Below are positions 4,290 through 14,583 of a stretch of 64,000 nucleotides of DNA, piece by piece. The stretch's first letter is position 1. Each line of letters opens with the position of its first letter. The notes beneath the pieces were generated by a model that saw only the letters and a program-made list of their open reading frames with translations, did not search any database and was not told where the DNA came from. Position numbers and translations under genes: made by a program. Source of the stretch: Pontibacter kalidii (GTDB lineage: Bacteria; Bacteroidota; Bacteroidia; Cytophagales; Hymenobacteraceae); assembly GCF_026278245.1 (NCBI RefSeq), contig NZ_CP111079.1:3040501-3104500 (forward strand). Direction: 5' to 3'.

Positions 4290-5768
4290 ATGTCCTCAAC
4301 CCTTATCATAGGCCTGATCATTGCCTATTTCTGTATCCTGATCTTTATTTCTTACCTCACCAGCCGTAATTCCGACTCTGAGACTTTCTTCCTGGCCAAC
4401 CGCTCCTCGCCCTGGTATGTGGTGGCCTTTGGCATGATCGGCACCTCGCTGTCGGGAGTGACGTTCGTATCAATTCCCGGCATGGTGGCGGTGGCAGAAT
4501 TCTCGTACCTGCAGTTTGTGCTGGGCTACCTGTTGGGCTATTTCGTGATTGCCACGGTGCTCATGCCGCTCTACTACCGCATGAACCTGGTCTCGATCTA
4601 TACTTACCTGGAAGACCGCTTCGGATGGTGGTCGTATAAGACGGGGGCGGCCTTCTTCCTGCTCTCGCGCACATTGGGTGCGGCTATTCGCCTTTTCCTG
4701 GTGGCGGGAGTACTGCAGTTGGCGGTTTTCGATGATTTTGGTATTCCCTTCTCCGTTTCCGTCATCATCACCATTGTCCTGATTTGGGTGTATACCTTCC
4801 GGGGTGGTATGAAAACGATCATCTGGACCGATACCTTCCAGACAACCGCCATGCTGCTGGCGGTTGGTGTCAGCATCTGGCTCATCTCCGACGAGCTGAA
4901 CCTGAGCTTCCAGGGATTGATTGACACGATACAGACCAGCGAATACTCACAGGTATTTTACTGGGATTTCAAGGATAGCAAATACTTCCTCAAGCAGTTC
5001 TTCTCCGGCGCTTTCATCGCCATTGTGATGACGGGCCTTGACCAGGACATGATGCAGAAGAACCTGAGCTGCAAAAACATCGGCGAGGCCCAGAAGAACA
5101 TGTTCTGGTTCAGCATCATTCTGGTGTTTGTAAACATCCTGTTCCTGGCCCTGGGTGCTTTGCTTTACATCTATGCCAACGCTAAGGGCATCGCCCTTCC
5201 AGAGCGCGGCGATGATGTGTTCCCATTCCTGGCCCTGAACCACTTCTCATACTTTGCAGGCATCATATTCATACTTGGTATCATTGCCATTACGTACGCC
5301 TCGGCCGACTCGGCGCTTACGGCACTAACCACCTCCTTCTGCGTGGACTTTCTTAACTTCAAGGACCGTCCGGAGCAGGAGCGTGTGCGTGTGCGCTACA
5401 TCGTTCACGCCGGTATCTCCGTGGTAATGGGCCTTGTCATCATCGCTTTTGACATCCTGAACAATGATAGTGTGGTAACTGCCGTATTCAAGGTGGCCGG
5501 TTATACCTACGGGCCCCTGCTGGGCCTCTATTCCTTCGGCATCTACACCAAGCGGGCTGTGCGCGACAAATTTGTGCCTGCCGTCTGCATCATCGCGCCG
5601 CTGCTTACCCTTATCCTCAGCTACAACTCCGTAGACTGGTTCTGGGGCTACGAGTTCGGCTTCGAGGTACTGATCCTCAACGGCTTTCTGACCTTTATTG
5701 GCCTGATGGCTGTTTCGACAGGTAAGATTGATGAGCTGGAGCTGGCGCAGGAGCAAACGACCGCTTAA
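4290..5768 (+). CDS. Sodium:solute symporter (SSS family)
   Basis: 492 residues, ATG start, hydrophobic throughout with about 13 membrane helices. The N-terminus (IIAYFCILIFISYLTSR followed by SDSETFFLANRSSPWYVVAF) and the segment GTSLSGVTFVSIPG match the SSS core, whose early Ser/Thr residues help to bind Na+. YASADSALTALTTSFCVDF is the typical later helix. The family couples Na+ entry to uptake of sugars, amino acids, vitamins or organic acids; the substrate cannot be read from sequence. It lies 68 bases after the hydrolase gene and ends at a strong terminator. Confidence 0.9.
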   Translation: MSSTLIIGLIIAYFCILIFISYLTSRNSDSETFFLANRSSPWYVVAFGMIGTSLSGVTFVSIPGMVAVAEFSYLQFVLGYLLGYFVIATVLMPLYYRMNLVSIYTYLEDRFGWWSYKTGAAFFLLSRTLGAAIRLFLVAGVLQLAVFDDFGIPFSVSVIITIVLIWVYTFRGGMKTIIWTDTFQTTAMLLAVGVSIWLISDELNLSFQGLIDTIQTSEYSQVFYWDFKDSKYFLKQFFSGAFIAIVMTGLDQDMMQKNLSCKNIGEAQKNMFWFSIILVFVNILFLALGALLYIYANAKGIALPERGDDVFPFLALNHFSYFAGIIFILGIIAITYASADSALTALTTSFCVDFLNFKDRPEQERVRVRYIVHAGISVVMGLVIIAFDILNNDSVVTAVFKVAGYTYGPLLGLYSFGIYTKRAVRDKFVPAVCIIAPLLTLILSYNSVDWFWGYEFGFEVLILNGFLTFIGLMAVSTGKIDELELAQEQTTA

Positions 5769-5783
5769 TTTTAGCTAAGCCTT

Positions 5784-5824
5784 AAAACGCCCTCTTCTGT
5801 TCTTCGGGAGAGGGCGTTTATTTT
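5784..5824 (+). terminator. Terminator after the symporter gene
   Basis: The stem AAACGCCCTCT / AGAGGGCGTTT has a 13-base loop and is followed by TATTTTAT. Confidence 0.85.
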
Positions 5825-5844
5825 ATATGCCTTCGTAGCCTTAT

Positions 5845-9687: not shown

Positions 9688-9954
9688 CTATTCTTTTAGC
9701 AGGAGCTTCTTTGCCACCCCTTCTTCTAATTCAAGGCCCCACTTTTTCAAAATGGGCTCCTCCAGCGCTTTTTCCCTGTACTCGTCTGGTGTCATAATCG
9801 GGATACCGTATACAACAGGGTAATACCTCCTGCACGCGGGGCAGGTTAACAGGCCTTCCTTAATTTCCCCGTTTTCGTCCTTTACAAAAATCTGTATGTT
9901 AAGATCGTGCTTGTCTATGGGGCAGCACAGTTTATTTAAGAGCGATGCATTCAT
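9688..9954 (-). CDS. Trm112-like zinc protein, last gene of the TPP-riboswitch operon
   Basis: 88 residues. Two cysteine pairs (LLNKLCCPIDK near residue 10 and LLTCPACRRYYPVVYGIPIM near residue 37) form the small zinc domain of the Trm112/UPF0434 family. The YPVVYGIPIM ending of the domain is diagnostic. In eukaryotes and archaea Trm112 binds and stabilises several class I methyltransferases. Here the first gene of the same operon is such a methyltransferase, so a partner role is a fair inference, not shown. Its ATG overlaps the stop of the ThiE-like gene (ATGA, 9951-9954), implying coupled translation. It could instead be an independent housekeeping zinc protein. Confidence 0.88.
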   Translation of the reverse strand: MNASLLNKLCCPIDKHDLNIQIFVKDENGEIKEGLLTCPACRRYYPVVYGIPIMTPDEYREKALEEPILKKWGLELEEGVAKKLLLKE

Positions 9955-10601
9955 GTTTTATACTTGTTTAAAGCGTGATGATAGGCCGCAGCGGACTCCC
10001 TGGCAGAAGCGGCGTTCAGAATACCGGAGATAACCGCCACCCCGTCAAAGTCCAGCTCTTTTAGCGCAAGCATGTTTTCTGTTGTGATGCCGCCGGACAG
10101 AAAGAGCGGCATCTGTGTCATTTCTCTGGCTTCCCTGATCGTTTCCGGTCGTACTAGCTCACAGCTGCCCGCCGAGGACGAAGGAAACACCGCACAGAAG
10201 GATACATAGTCGAGTTGATTTTCGGTGGCCCAGCGTATCACGTCCAGGTTGTTGCTGCAGGTAATTCCGGTGATAAAATCTCGCCCAACTGCAGCTTTCA
10301 TGCCTTCAAGGTTCTCCGGAATATCATCAAAATGAACACCCGACAGTTCCGTGTCTTTCAGCAACTCCCACTCTTCGTTTATCAACAAAGGCACCTGATA
10401 AGCACCGGCAAGATCGACTAAATCTTTGATGAGGGCTTTTTTATCAGCAGCGCTGTAGTCAGCTGGCCAGTTATTCCAGATCTGCAGTGCGCTCACGCCG
10501 CCTTCCAAGGCTTCCTGCACCTTTTGTAGCAGCACCACCTGGTTTATGCTTGGGTCCAGTACGAGGTAAATTCCACTGGTAATTTTGCTATTCTCTCTCA
10601 T
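9951..10601 (-). CDS. ThiE/TenI-fold protein with altered active-site motif
   Basis: 216 residues. The start at 10601 (MRENSK) is chosen because its ATG overlaps the upstream stop as ATGA (10598-10601); an ATG two codons earlier is possible. The fold is that of thiamine-phosphate synthase: EALEGGVSALQ, LLINEEWELL, GVHFDD, DYVSFCAVFPSSS and the phosphate loop FLSGGITTENM. Several ThiE hallmarks are changed. The Q-x-R pyrimidine-diphosphate motif reads Q40-I-W42, NDR reads NEE, and GQxD reads FDDI. It may therefore bind a different substrate or act as a regulator. Membership in a TPP-riboswitch operon ties it to thiamine. Confidence 0.82.
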   Translation of the reverse strand: MRENSKITSGIYLVLDPSINQVVLLQKVQEALEGGVSALQIWNNWPADYSAADKKALIKDLVDLAGAYQVPLLINEEWELLKDTELSGVHFDDIPENLEGMKAAVGRDFITGITCSNNLDVIRWATENQLDYVSFCAVFPSSSAGSCELVRPETIREAREMTQMPLFLSGGITTENMLALKELDFDGVAVISGILNAASARESAAAYHHALNKYKT

Positions 10602-11662
10602 TTCCACCCTGCTTTCAGCGCTTTAAAAAATGCCCCCCAATAAGGATCTTTCCCATCGAAGGATAACTTGTTCTCTTCGCTATTCTCCACCACCCTGAAA
10701 CCTGCTTCCCGCGGCAGCATTTCGCCGACTACCGTTGCCTTGATGGATTTGGCAGCTAGGTGACAGATAAGCTCCTGCTCTTTCCCTGGCTTTACAGCCA
10801 TCACCATAGAGCCGGCACCAACACAGAAGCGGTGGTCGATGCCGAACAGCCGGGTTATCTGGAGCTGTGCTTCTCCTGCCGGAAGAGCATCGTTATAGAT
10901 TCTGAAGCCACAGCCGGAGGCATTCGCCATCTCGCAGATAGCCCCTACGACGCCGCCCTCTGTCACATCGTGCATGGCTTTCAGCTCCGTATTGCTTTTG
11001 AGCACCTCCCTGGCAGCCAGGGCATCGGGCAGCGAGGAAGTTTGAAAGAAGTTCTCGCACCCATTCTCCCATACTTCACAGCCCAGTTTGTTCTTCACCG
11101 TTTCCGGAAAGCTCATGGCCAGGATAGAAGAGGAGACAAGGGCGGTTTCTTTCGTGACGACAAGTATATCTCCTGGCTCGGCCTTGTCGCTCGTCAGTAT
11201 CTCGTTTAGAGGAGCCGTCAGAAACATGGTACCGCCACCCGAAATGGTGGAGTTCTGGCCTTCGATCTGCCCTGTATGGCCTCCGGTAATGGCTACGCCT
11301 ATCTCCTGGCAAAACTGATGCATATACCCCCAGTACTCCCTGAATGCCTCCAGGGAAAGGCTGGTGGGCAGGTTGAGCACAAACTGCGCATACATGGGAG
11401 CAAAGCCCGTAGAAGCCATGTCATTGGCCAGCAAATGCACCGACAGCCAGGCCGACTCCTTCAGCCCGATGGAAGGTATAAGGGAAAGCGGATCGCTCGA
11501 CACAGCCATTCCGAGATTATTGCCCAAATCAATAACAGCCGTATCTACCCCAAACCGGGGGCCAACCAGCACCTCCTCCCGCTGCGCCCCGCTTTGCGGC
11601 AACAGCACCTCTTTAAAAGTGGCAACGGCCAGCTTTCCGGAGTTGTCGTCAAAGGCGCTCAT
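10598..11662 (-). CDS. AIR-synthase-fold protein, HypE/ThiL-like
   Basis: 354 residues. The start at 11662 (MSAFDDN) gives an ATGA overlap with the methyltransferase stop; a longer frame to 11761 would overlap that gene by 100 bases. Family motifs in order are GVDTAVIDLG, SSDPLS, HLLANDMASTGFAPM, AITGGHTGQIEG, the Gly-rich STISGGGTMF and KAMHDVTEGGVVGA. HDVTEGG is closest to the HypE branch, but the C-terminal cysteine that HypE uses in nickel-ligand synthesis is absent (the protein ends KALKAGWK), and no other hyp gene is near. Relatives bind ATP and phosphorylate or dehydrate small substrates. A kinase-like role in thiamine metabolism is inferred from the riboswitch and the ThiE-like neighbour. 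Confidence 0.85.
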   Translation of the reverse strand: MSAFDDNSGKLAVATFKEVLLPQSGAQREEVLVGPRFGVDTAVIDLGNNLGMAVSSDPLSLIPSIGLKESAWLSVHLLANDMASTGFAPMYAQFVLNLPTSLSLEAFREYWGYMHQFCQEIGVAITGGHTGQIEGQNSTISGGGTMFLTAPLNEILTSDKAEPGDILVVTKETALVSSSILAMSFPETVKNKLGCEVWENGCENFFQTSSLPDALAAREVLKSNTELKAMHDVTEGGVVGAICEMANASGCGFRIYNDALPAGEAQLQITRLFGIDHRFCVGAGSMVMAVKPGKEQELICHLAAKSIKATVVGEMLPREAGFRVVENSEENKLSFDGKDPYWGAFFKALKAGWK

Positions 11663-12384
11663 ATCGCATCGTTTAGGCGTACGTACATACCAAAGAAATC
11701 GCCATAGGGCTGGTGCCACTGCTGTACCGGGAACCACTGGGGCAGGCCGGTTGCGGTCCATTCTATCGTATAGTCTCTCCCTTGTAAGGCTTCCGCTATC
11801 ACCGCCAGCAGCTTTTTGGGCGTGTAAAAAGTGGCCGTAACGTAGAAAGGATTTTTGCCGAACATCTCCTGCACCCTTCTTCTGACTACCTTCGGGGAGT
11901 TGCGGTTCATCATGCCGAACACAATGCCATACTTGCCCACGCGCGCCGCCTCCCGAATCACCTTCACGGGGTCTTTGTAGTACTCAAAGGTGGTGATAAA
12001 GGCCAGGGCATCAAAGGTATGATCCTTGAACGGCATGTGGTGGGAGTCGGCCAGCACCAGGTCGCCGTCGAACAGATGCACGCCCTGCCCCAGCATAAAA
12101 GGCGAGATGTCGCCGCCACTTGCCTCTATCCCGATTTCCTTCCACCAGCGGGTAAAGCGGGTGGTGCCGCAGCCAAACTCCAGCAGTGTCTTTACACGTT
12201 CATCTTTCTTGATTAGCTGACCGATCACCTTTTTCTGCCATACTTCGGCGCGCTTGTAGCGGCCCTCATACCAGAGTTCGTAGGTGTCGGTGTGGTCGCG
12301 GTTAAAAAACCATTCTTCGCGGCCCTGCCACTTGCGCAGGTCGCGGGTTACCAGGTCGAATTTTTGTTGTTGCAGATTGCTCAC
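11659..12384 (-). CDS. Class I SAM-dependent methyltransferase, first gene of the TPP-riboswitch operon
   Basis: 241 residues from a GTG start at 12384. The SAM-binding loop EFGCGTTRFT starts at Glu69; an acidic GDISPFML (motif II) and ALAFITTFEYYKDPVKVIREAARV (motif IV and later) follow, as in UbiE-like methyltransferases. The C-terminal TGLPQWFPVQQWHQPYGDFF probably forms the substrate cap. No signal peptide. The leader (12385-12470) separates it from a TPP aptamer, so it is expected to be repressed by thiamine pyrophosphate. The methyl acceptor is unknown; a thiamine-related metabolite is one option, an RNA or protein substrate with the Trm112-like partner another. Confidence 0.85.
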   Translation of the reverse strand: MSNLQQQKFDLVTRDLRKWQGREEWFFNRDHTDTYELWYEGRYKRAEVWQKKVIGQLIKKDERVKTLLEFGCGTTRFTRWWKEIGIEASGGDISPFMLGQGVHLFDGDLVLADSHHMPFKDHTFDALAFITTFEYYKDPVKVIREAARVGKYGIVFGMMNRNSPKVVRRRVQEMFGKNPFYVTATFYTPKKLLAVIAEALQGRDYTIEWTATGLPQWFPVQQWHQPYGDFFGMYVRLNDAI

Positions 12385-12472
12385 AGCAGGTATTTTAGCG
12401 TTATAAAATAGCCTGACTGTTTAAGGCAGATAGGAAGAAGGGAATATACTTGTGCAAAGTACCCCATGAGGT

Positions 12473-12558
12473 TACAATTCCTACGCTGGCATTATCCAGA
12501 TCAGGTTGCGGGTATCATCTCAGCCTGAGGACATTATAGTCGTCAAGCACCCCGTGTA
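12473..12558 (-). ncRNA. TPP riboswitch (THI element) aptamer
   Basis: Read on the minus strand, all conserved TPP parts are present in order. P1 is closed by UACA/UGUA. P2 pairs GGGGUGC with ACCCG. The pyrimidine-sensing CUGAGAUGAUACCC is followed by the diphosphate-sensing CCUGAUCUGGAUAAUGCCAG and GCGUAGGAA. The downstream leader has a GCCT/AGGC hairpin followed by TATTTT near 12400-12420, which is too weak to call a terminator with confidence, so control may act at translation. It precedes the four-gene methyltransferase operon, so the operon should be switched off by TPP. Confidence 0.96.
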
Positions 12559-12711
12559 CTTTTGCTAAGGTATAAAACTTCGGAGAGAATAAAAAACAGC
12601 GCCACAAACAATGGCCAGTAGCTCCGCAATCATGGGTGCACTACTGGTTAAATTTTAAGATAATGTGTAATATTACACCAGCATCAACAAATTAAAACCT
12701 AATCGAAAACC

Positions 12712-13581
12712 ATGAAAAAAGCACTCATCGGCTTTGCCCTGTCAGCAGCACTTATGCTGGGCGCAGGCGCTGCACAGGCGCAAGGTATAAAAATGCCGGC
12801 TGCAAGCCCGTCGCAGAAAATTGAGCAGGCCGTAGGCCTGGGAACCATCTCCGTGGACTATTCTCGTCCGGCAGTGAAAGATCGCCAGATTTTCGGCGAC
12901 CTGGTGCCTTACGGCCAAGTATGGCGCACTGGTGCCAATGCCTCCACCAAGATCAAATTCTCTGAGGACGTCACCATTGAGGGAAATAAAGTGCCTGCGG
13001 GCGAGTATGCCCTGTACACCATTCCGGGCAAGGACGAGTGGACCATCATCATCCATAAAAACACCAAGCACTGGGGCGATGGCGGCCAGGACTACAACCA
13101 GGCCGAGGACCTGGTGCGCTTTAAGGTGAAACCGCAGCCGAACCCGCGTAAAGCAGAGTCTTTCACCATTAACTTTGCCAACCTTAAGGCTGATGCGGCA
13201 GATGTGGAGATCATGTGGGACAATGTGGTGGTGCCTTTCACGGTAAAAACTGATGTAGACAGCAAAGTGATGGCGCAGATAAACGAGCACGTGGTGAAAG
13301 GCACCAACGTGAACCCGAACCTGTATGCAGCAGCGGCGAACTATTACCTTGAAAAAGGCCACGACCTGAAACAAGCCCATGCGTGGATGAAAAAGGCCAA
13401 CGAAAAGGATCCTAAATTTTGGAACCTGCACGCACAGGCTAAAATTGAGGCACAGCTGAAGAACTACAAAGCCGCCGTTAAAACAGCCGAGAAATCTATG
13501 GAACTGGCTAAGGCAGCCAATAACCAGGATTATGTTCGCCTGAACGAGAAGGCTATTGCCGAGTGGAAAAAGATGAAATAA
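12712..13581 (+). CDS. DUF2911 domain protein with C-terminal helical repeat
   Basis: 289 residues. The signal peptide MKKALIGFALSAALMLGAGA ends at AQAQ (residue 23). The DUF2911 domain (about 30-180) shows SQKIEQAVGLGTISVDYSRP, VWRTGANASTKIKFSEDVT, VPAGEYALYTIPG and WGDGGQDYN, all typical. The C-terminal 90 residues (NLYAAAANYYLEKGHDLKQA and on) are a TPR-like helical pair rich in Ala and Lys. The domain is widespread in secreted Bacteroidota proteins and has no known function. A strong terminator follows. The gene is divergent from the TPP operon, and its promoter must lie in 12560-12700. Confidence 0.88.
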   Translation: MKKALIGFALSAALMLGAGAAQAQGIKMPAASPSQKIEQAVGLGTISVDYSRPAVKDRQIFGDLVPYGQVWRTGANASTKIKFSEDVTIEGNKVPAGEYALYTIPGKDEWTIIIHKNTKHWGDGGQDYNQAEDLVRFKVKPQPNPRKAESFTINFANLKADAADVEIMWDNVVVPFTVKTDVDSKVMAQINEHVVKGTNVNPNLYAAAANYYLEKGHDLKQAHAWMKKANEKDPKFWNLHAQAKIEAQLKNYKAAVKTAEKSMELAKAANNQDYVRLNEKAIAEWKKMK

Positions 13582-13668: not shown

Positions 13669-14583
13669 TTGGAAGAGAAGAAGCATTCGGAAGAGCACCT
13701 GGGCCCCGCCCGGGAATACTGGTGGAACGAGGATTACCTGGAGCTGCTGGCTGAGCGCCTGTATATCCCCTACACGCAAACGCTGGTGGATATTGGCTGT
13801 GGCAAGGGCATGATGGGTTTTAAGTTCTCCAAATATATGCCCGACGCCGGCAAAGTATACGGCGTGGATTACGAGCCGGGCTACATTGCCGAGGCGCGGC
13901 AGCGGGCGCAAAGCGAGTTTGGCCACAAGAACATCGACTACGAGTTTAAGGTGGGAAACGCCACCGACATCCCCCTGCCCGACGATATTGCTGACGTGAC
14001 GCTCTGCCAGACGCTGCTGATCCACGTGAAAAACCCGCAGCGCGTGATCCAGGAGATGATACGGGTAACCAAGCCGGGCGGCTGGGTGGTGGCCCTGGAG
14101 CCGAATAACCTCGTGCCCAACCTCATGTTCGACCGCTACGGCGAGACCGATTATAACGTGGAGGCGATGCTGGAGGTGCTGGAGGTGAAGCTGCGCATCG
14201 AGAAAGGCAAGAAAAACCTGGGCGAAGGCTTTAACTCGCTTGGCGACGTGGTGCCCGACCTCTTTCTGAAAGCCGGTTTGCGGGATGTGAAAGTGTGGAT
14301 CTCGGACAAGGCCCTTTCCATCATCCCGCCCTACGACACCCAGGAGAAGATGCTGCGCGTGGAGCAGATGCTGCAGTGGATTGAAAGCGAAGCTATGGGC
14401 TACGACTACCAGGACAACCTGAACTACTTTATGGCCGGCGGTGGCGACAAAGATAAATTTGATGCCTATTGGCAGAAACTCCTCTACAACAAGATTATGC
14501 TGAAGGAGAAACTGCAGAAAGAGGAGTATGTGTCGGCGGGTGGAAGTTTGGTATACATTGTGGCGGCGCAGAAACCGAGGTAA
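13669..14583 (+). CDS. Class I SAM-dependent methyltransferase
   Basis: 304 residues from a TTG start 24 bases after a terminator; no ATG occurs in the first 40 codons. The SAM motif DIGCGKGMMGFKFS begins at Asp41, followed by GVDYEPGYIAEARQRA (motif II), VGNATDIPLPDDIADVTLCQ (motif III/IV) and MIRVTKPGGWVVALEPNN (motif V/VI). This is a Methyltransf_11/25-type core with a long C-terminal region (about 170-300) probably contacting the acceptor. It is unrelated in detail to the TPP-operon methyltransferase. Because the gene starts so close to a terminator, either the TTG is wrong or the promoter overlaps the terminator stem. Confidence 0.85.
   Translation: MEEKKHSEEHLGPAREYWWNEDYLELLAERLYIPYTQTLVDIGCGKGMMGFKFSKYMPDAGKVYGVDYEPGYIAEARQRAQSEFGHKNIDYEFKVGNATDIPLPDDIADVTLCQTLLIHVKNPQRVIQEMIRVTKPGGWVVALEPNNLVPNLMFDRYGETDYNVEAMLEVLEVKLRIEKGKKNLGEGFNSLGDVVPDLFLKAGLRDVKVWISDKALSIIPPYDTQEKMLRVEQMLQWIESEAMGYDYQDNLNYFMAGGGDKDKFDAYWQKLLYNKIMLKEKLQKEEYVSAGGSLVYIVAAQKPR

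Follow-up and report, generated by a model that had tools for sequence, protein, structure and literature searches.

A conserved four-gene operon behind a predicted TPP riboswitch in Pontibacter kalidii and its possible role in thiamine supply

What is made by four genes, coding for a methyltransferase, a HypE-like enzyme, a ThiE-like protein and a Trm112-like protein (genes 1 to 4), that stand together behind a riboswitch for thiamine pyrophosphate (TPP)? The question is raised by a 64,000-nucleotide stretch of the Pontibacter kalidii genome (contig NZ_CP111079.1, positions 3,040,501 to 3,104,500), which is called the window below. Our preferred answer, to which a probability of about one half was assigned, is that the operon is a TPP-repressed alternative route supplying thiamine phosphate, or thiamine, in Bacteroidota in which the canonical ThiC/ThiD/ThiG/ThiE set was lost or was never present. 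The observations behind this reading are the riboswitch match, the linkage of the four genes, the distribution of ThiC, ThiG and ThiD, the protein families, the altered motifs of the ThiE-like protein and the occurrence of a separate ThiL.

The RF00059 aptamer upstream of gene 1 was the sole Rfam match at the gathering threshold within the window, and it was found again in whole-genome searches (Table 1). It agrees with the aptamer that an earlier note, written from the bases, had called at 12473-12558 of the minus strand. The three ATGA joins described there were also all read in the sequence, the stop codon TGA overlapping the start codon ATG in each, and the family labels given to the four genes were backed by Pfam (Methyltransf_11, AIRS/AIRS_C, TMP-TENI and Trm112p). 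Gene 3 has an alternative start, an in-frame GTG at 10607, that would give a product of 218 amino acids. Between the aptamer and gene 1 the leader was predicted to form a hairpin, the 3' arm of which would reach into the GTG start as far as its second base and which is a possible expression platform; the fold is weak, with a z-score of -1.45 for the whole leader and 17 of 200 shuffles folding equally well. On the strength of the riboswitch match, both binding of TPP and a resulting repression of the operon are predicted.

The four genes were found to be kept together far beyond the window. When named genomes were searched with the gene 2 protein, 23 loci were obtained, from Pontibacter, Nafulsella, Roseivirga, Algoriphagus, Neolewinella, Catalimonadaceae, Balneolales and others, and all four genes were present in order at every one of them. 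The next commonest shared family, an ABC transporter, occurred at 10 of the 23 and the remaining families at 8 or fewer, so that the four genes form a conserved unit. Over all, the same order and strand were seen at every one of 34 distinct loci, which come from several families of Bacteroidota and were counted after removal of duplicates (L033, L035-L037, L039 and L055 coincide with L004, L005, L006, L008, L009 and L007) and among the matches listed in the protein searches (120 of 1719, 120 of 594 and 120 of 536). A local accident of gene order was rejected on this ground. Only some relatives retain the ATGA overlaps; small overlaps or gaps are common, and between genes 3 and 4 a gap can be as long as 535 bases. 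Pairwise distances were correlated among the genes (r 0.59 to 0.87, highest at 0.87 for the HypE-like and ThiE-like proteins), which would fit genes inherited together. A TPP aptamer was present upstream at 32 of the 34 loci, namely the window, L004-L010, 14 further distinct loci, 9 more recovered in genome searches, and L034; one of these 9, that of G125, is below the gathering score at 47.8 bits and is counted here. Hence the gene order for which the earlier note had proposed a search held throughout, and the riboswitch, of which the note had asked whether it always accompanies that order, was present at all but two loci. The scattering of the genes among relatives, or the general lack of the riboswitch, that the same note had named as grounds for abandoning its idea was not what was found.

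The distribution of the operon was complementary to that of ThiC. In a sample of 392 Bacteroidota genomes drawn evenly over the phylum, the methyltransferase (E <= 1e-40) was detected in 14, at 72-100% identity, all 14 with the complete operon, and ThiC was detected in 125; the two samples were taken to be the same 392 genomes, as judged from equal settings, number and handles. No genome had both, where 4.5 were expected (hypergeometric P 0.0041, kinship ignored), and the value changed to 0.0061 when the window's own genome was left out. A telling swap of one for the other was seen in the genus of G331, which carries the operon, while five other sampled genomes of that genus carry ThiC (G070, G151, G265, G320 and G354). 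This complementarity also bears on the view that the operon makes a thiamine-like antimetabolite or a modified cofactor. In the bacimethrin/methoxythiamine route, which concerns an analogue of the thiamine pyrimidine, a methyltransferase acts on the pyrimidine, and the methyltransferase of the operon gives a likeness to that cluster. However, TPP control at 32 of 34 loci and a distribution complementary to ThiC are better explained by thiamine supply, and inspection of the neighbourhoods by eye showed neither a thiaminase nor a thymidylate-synthase-like gene, no dedicated search having been made. An antimetabolite is thus considered very unlikely. The earlier note had allowed for making, salvaging or modifying a thiamine-like compound, and its interpretation is supported in part: the supply part fits the TPP control and the complementarity with ThiC, and the analogue or modified product fits less well.

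The genomes carrying the operon were then compared for other thiamine genes. The carriers were followed under 36 handles that stand for 33 distinct genomes (G258 and G461, G396 and G451, and G363 and G455 are identical pairs), with the genome of L034 outside the set; the carrier-wide searches covered ThiC, ThiG, ThiD and TPK. ThiC was found in 2 of the 33, G459 and G463, the metagenome-assembled genomes of L050 and L054, and was not found in the window's genome. ThiG was sought once in 8 genomes and once under 28 handles at E <= 1e-20, and a strong match was obtained in G459 only. In the 8 carriers its matches were 7e-6 or weaker, some just above the Pfam cut-off, against 1e-106 or better in 13 ThiC genomes; the window's genome gave a partial match of 9.4e-5 (23.2 bits, cut-off 23). 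A strong ThiD-type kinase (E < 1e-60) was present in 4 carriers, G459, G463, G305 and G452. ThiD matches at E <= 0.001 occurred in 31 of 36 rows, 26 of them above the Pfam cut-off, and all but four were partial and at 6e-16 or weaker, including that of the window's genome (7.1e-7, 30 bits, cut-off 27). The weak ThiG matches probably belong to other barrels, and the weak ThiD matches to further kinases of the ThiD family. In 8 carriers no TMP-TENI protein other than the operon copy was detected at E <= 0.001. In the comparison with thiC, thiG, thiD and thiL that the earlier note had suggested, ThiC was absent from 31 of 33 carriers, strong ThiG from 32 and strong ThiD from 29, and a ThiL was seen in the Pontibacter carrier G005. 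Several Pontibacter genomes possess ThiL, and a canonical thiamine cluster was read by eye in two genomes with ThiC, G001 and G036 (L065 and L169). TPK (PF04263) gave no match in 24 of 24 Pontibacter genomes, with or without ThiC, in a search whose control detected only 7 of 14 known genomes; matches were obtained in 15 of 53 rows, mostly of family f42.

A search for TPP sites in the 33 carriers and 7 Pontibacter genomes with neither the operon nor ThiC gave two sites in 19 carriers, more than two in 11, one in 1 and none in 2; each of the 7 non-carriers had a single site. The second site of the window's genome precedes a TonB receptor, and, among the loci fetched, 21 carriers have a relative of this receptor at a TPP site. 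The receptor bears on the main rival explanation, that the operon serves only salvage or repair, converting one particular vitamer, damaged or taken from outside (such as damaged thiamine or a pyrimidine with an aminomethyl or other modification), to thiamine phosphate in carriers that are true auxotrophs. ThiC and strong ThiG are almost wholly absent from the carriers, yet the TPP-controlled TonB receptor is kept; the operon occurs in only 7 of 37 Pontibacter genomes and 22 of the 37 have neither operon nor ThiC, which is the pattern of an accessory module; and four proteins would then not be needed to build both rings. On the other hand, strong matches to ThiD, the usual salvage kinase, are lacking in 29 of 33 carriers, so that the substrate or its activation would be new, reading of the operon's neighbourhoods by eye showed no TenA or ThiM (no dedicated search was made), and the methyltransferase appears to be conserved to a degree like that of ThiC, above what would be expected of a niche salvage enzyme. 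Because the carriers have the controlled receptor and many relatives have neither route, salvage stands as a doubtful but serious explanation.

The proteins themselves were examined for what they could do. Gene 3 belongs to the TMP-TENI family (PF02581, 7e-32), and its profile matched Bacillus subtilis ThiE chains at about 1e-25. In ThiE the C-terminal SGGIT...VISGI segment holds the thiazole phosphate, and this segment is retained. The arginine and lysine of the QxREK motif and the residues of TxTK hold the pyrophosphate of hydroxymethylpyrimidine pyrophosphate (HMP-PP) in the B. subtilis enzyme, and these positions are altered: QxREK has become Q-x-W-x-H/N, with tryptophan for arginine in 17 of 17 rows and histidine or asparagine for lysine in 16, arginine in 1, and TxTK has become SxS or SxT, the lysine column being empty in all 17 operon rows. 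Family invariants of its own were W42, C136, C147 and E148 (31 of 31 rows). An ordinary ThiE was rejected for gene 3, since its best NCBIfam match, thiE (TIGR00693), reached 103.2 bits against a curated cut-off of 145.1 and the canonical arginine and lysine positions are lost. The altered pyrophosphate motifs and the absence of strong ThiD from most carriers jointly argue that the pyrimidine partner is something other than HMP-PP.

Gene 2 carries AIRS_C (2.5e-20) and AIRS (6e-11) domains, and its best NCBIfam match was thiL, at 70.3 bits against a curated cut-off of 184.15; with hypE it scored 66.7 bits against 251.6. When the predicted structure was compared with solved folds, HypE took ranks 1-7 in one comparison and 1-12 in a second, which places the modelled fold nearer to HypE than to ThiL. 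The GGEDYEL segment, present in the ThiL rows L166 and L016, is absent from gene 2, and 20 of 20 operon rows are without GGEDYE. The C-terminal PRIC tail, whose cysteine carries the carbamoyl group in HypE and which is present in the references L014 and L022, is absent as well, and a C-terminus containing DPYW stands in its place; the absence applies to the window protein and six full-length P rows, and the other operon rows end at the end of the match or reading frame, likewise without the tail. Identification of gene 2 as ThiL was rejected for the score below cut-off, the missing GGEDYE, the fold nearer to HypE and the separate, genuine ThiL of G005 (L166, 333 bits against a cut-off of 184). 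Other genomes also gave weak AIRS matches, which were rejected as members of the operon family, those read being SelD, ThiL or HypE. These results bear on a second alternative, according to which genes 3 and 2 are simply the thiamine phosphate synthase and kinase of the ordinary last steps, with the methyltransferase and the Trm112-like gene as hitchhikers. The best matches to thiE and thiL within one TPP-controlled operon would favour it, but both scores fall under their cut-offs, the predicted fold of gene 2, the additional ThiL, the missing arginine and lysines of gene 3 and the lack of strong ThiD in 29 of 33 carriers all speak against it, and the methyltransferase, being the most conserved of the four products and present at 34 of 34 loci, fits a hitchhiker poorly. 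This explanation is regarded as improbable.

Gene 1 was assigned to Methyltransf_11 (8.4e-15, 55.6 bits, cut-off 21.2), and its motif I for S-adenosylmethionine (SAM), E69-x-G71-C-G-T-x-R76, was invariant in 32 of 32 rows. Its mean identity of 76% was the highest of the four and similar to that among five full-length ThiC proteins (72-80%). Gene 4 matched Trm112p in Pfam (2.8e-9, 37.2 bits, gathering 22) and the archaeal Trm112 of NCBIfam at 63.3 bits, below the cut-off of 77; its profile matches Trm112 chains. Its motif, C11-P12-x-D14 followed after 23 residues by C38-x2-C41, was invariant in 15 of 15 rows and agrees with the signature [C/D]PX[C/D]X19-36CX2C that a 2017 review states for one archaeal subfamily (PMC5372719). 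The review describes bacterial Trm112 function as obscure, with nothing known of it. Genes 1 and 4 both appear homologous to the parts of a Trm112-methyltransferase holoenzyme, Haloferax Hvo_0019-Trm112 (PDB 6f5z), Bud23-Trm112 being another such pair, and from this resemblance they may form a heterodimer. The gene 1 profile matched Bud23 chains at 2.6e-6 to 2.4e-4, and many other methyltransferases matched it as well as the Trm112-partnered ones. The Bud23 and Trm112 matches could also be taken to mean that the pair, like its eukaryotic and archaeal counterparts, modifies transfer RNA, ribosomal RNA or a release factor, TPP control being incidental. However, the pair is linked to the ThiE-family and HypE-like genes at 34 of 34 loci, with the riboswitch at 32, and unlike a translation factor the methyltransferase occurs in only 14 of 392 genomes; this is the least likely of the explanations considered.

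For an alternative route to thiamine phosphate we infer the following scheme. A heterodimer of the methyltransferase and the Trm112-like protein would methylate a precursor, or otherwise use SAM on it. The HypE-like enzyme would spend ATP to activate an amide or hydroxyl oxygen of the precursor, and the ThiE-like barrel, with its thiazole-phosphate end retained, would catalyse the joining reaction or the final step of ring formation, its activated partner being something other than HMP pyrophosphate. TPP would then be made by ThiL, as in the carrier G005, or by TPK in other carriers, mostly those of f42. A stronger form of the proposal is that the four genes are a complete, non-homologous pathway from ordinary metabolites, in which the methyltransferase-Trm112 pair and the HypE-like activator build or activate the pyrimidine or thiazole made elsewhere by ThiC, ThiD and ThiG; this form is put forward tentatively, as possible.

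Several points weigh against an alternative route. To our knowledge there is no four-gene de novo route to thiamine, and none of the four proteins is recognisable as an enzyme that forms the pyrimidine or the thiazole. The exclusion of ThiC is less clear at short range: among 59 close relatives 8 had the operon, 13 had ThiC and none had both (P 0.12), and among the 37 genomes of the genus, taken to be Pontibacter from its named members, the numbers were 7, 8 and none (P 0.15), the phylum-wide value taking no account of kinship. Two carriers, both metagenome-assembled, do possess ThiC, one of them with ThiG (G459), and in most carriers ThiG and ThiD leave weak partial matches, some just above the Pfam cut-offs. 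Since the carriers also have the TPP-controlled TonB receptor, they may import thiamine. At two Neolewinella loci (L051 and L053) no aptamer was detectable, and their genomes were without any TPP site. Finally, the carrier G454 has two NMT1/THI5-like genes (PF09084) in its TPP regulon, at 4839-5834 and 5867-6811 of L161, which follow the TPP-controlled TonB receptor with no ABC transporter recognised alongside and whose products could be pyrimidine-binding or pyrimidine-forming. This pair was set aside as a main clue, none being present at TPP sites of the other loci searched; no genome-wide search was made.

Thiamine supply is a common basis of microbial dependency, and bacteria are classed as producers or auxotrophs by whether they have ThiC and ThiG. 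If the operon makes thiamine, 14 of the 392 sampled Bacteroidota would be miscalled and new vitamin enzymology would be opened. In addition, a bacterial Trm112 has here a constant gene partner, which offers a direct test; if the pathway were complete, there would be a job for a bacterial Trm112 and a third route to vitamin B1 in Bacteroidota.

Table 1. Features of the operon region, in positions of the window
Feature	Position	Strand	Basis
TPP riboswitch aptamer (RF00059)	12460..12564	minus	Rfam, 60.1 bits against gathering 54.3; refound in whole-genome searches
Predicted leader hairpin, possible expression platform	12383..12420	minus	minimum-energy fold of 12570-12375
Gene 1, class I SAM-dependent methyltransferase, 241 amino acids, GTG start	11659..12384	minus	open reading frame list, Pfam
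Gene 2, AIR-synthase-superfamily, HypE-like ATP-dependent enzyme, 354 amino acids	10598..11662	minus	open reading frame list, Pfam
Gene 3, ThiE/TenI-family barrel with altered active site, 216 amino acids	9951..10601	minus	open reading frame list, Pfam
Gene 4, Trm112-like zinc protein, 88 amino acids	9688..9954	minus	open reading frame list, Pfam
ATGA overlap, genes 1 and 2	11659..11662	minus	read from sequence
ATGA overlap, genes 2 and 3	10598..10601	minus	read from sequence
ATGA overlap, genes 3 and 4	9951..9954	minus	read from sequence

Other genes were seen near the operon and near TPP sites of related genomes. In the window, a DUF2911 protein is encoded divergently from the operon at 12712-13581, and another class I methyltransferase, on the plus strand at 13669-14583, is the second gene upstream of the riboswitch. 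DUF2911-like proteins were also noticed by eye near the TPP-controlled TonB receptor in f42 genomes (L150 4481-5041, L158 3843-4388, L159 4831-5367 and L163 3589-4134). A NadR-like kinase stands beside the receptor in L064 (1251-1781), L153 (7731-8881) and L161 (1239-2315), accompanied by a PnuC-type transporter in the last two; as none of the 24 Pontibacter genomes searched gave a PF04263 match, though several have ThiL, it may be a thiamine kinase. G456 and G363 (L152 6032-7709 and L154 2447-4037, from Algoriphagus and Roseivirga genomes) each have one more TPP site, scoring below the gathering threshold, ahead of a PnuC-type transporter gene; in both the transporter gene overlaps a second gene, which in L152 is acyl-CoA-dehydrogenase-like. 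G007, a Pontibacter genome with neither operon nor ThiC, has a classical salvage cluster of ThiM, ThiE, ThiD and TenA (by eye, L068 3950-6849).

No description of the operon was found among the titles and beginnings of abstracts listed in searches of an open-access library, and the words 'methyltransferase' and 'HypE' are absent from the main text of a study of gut Bacteroidetes (PMC5613172). According to that study, thiamine biosynthesis in 114 gut Bacteroidetes takes one of two configurations, ThiC/ThiD with ThiSFGH-TenI or a THI4-like enzyme (PMC5613172). The canonical TPP operons described there, thiSEGCHF-tenI and its THI4 variant, are like the present operon in having a TPP riboswitch, a ThiE-family gene and, elsewhere, a TPP-controlled TonB receptor (PMC5613172). 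Unlike them, the operon contains no ThiC, ThiD, ThiG, ThiH, ThiF or THI4-like gene, and in place of these it has a methyltransferase, a HypE-like enzyme and a Trm112-like protein, a set that may represent an undescribed way of obtaining thiamine.

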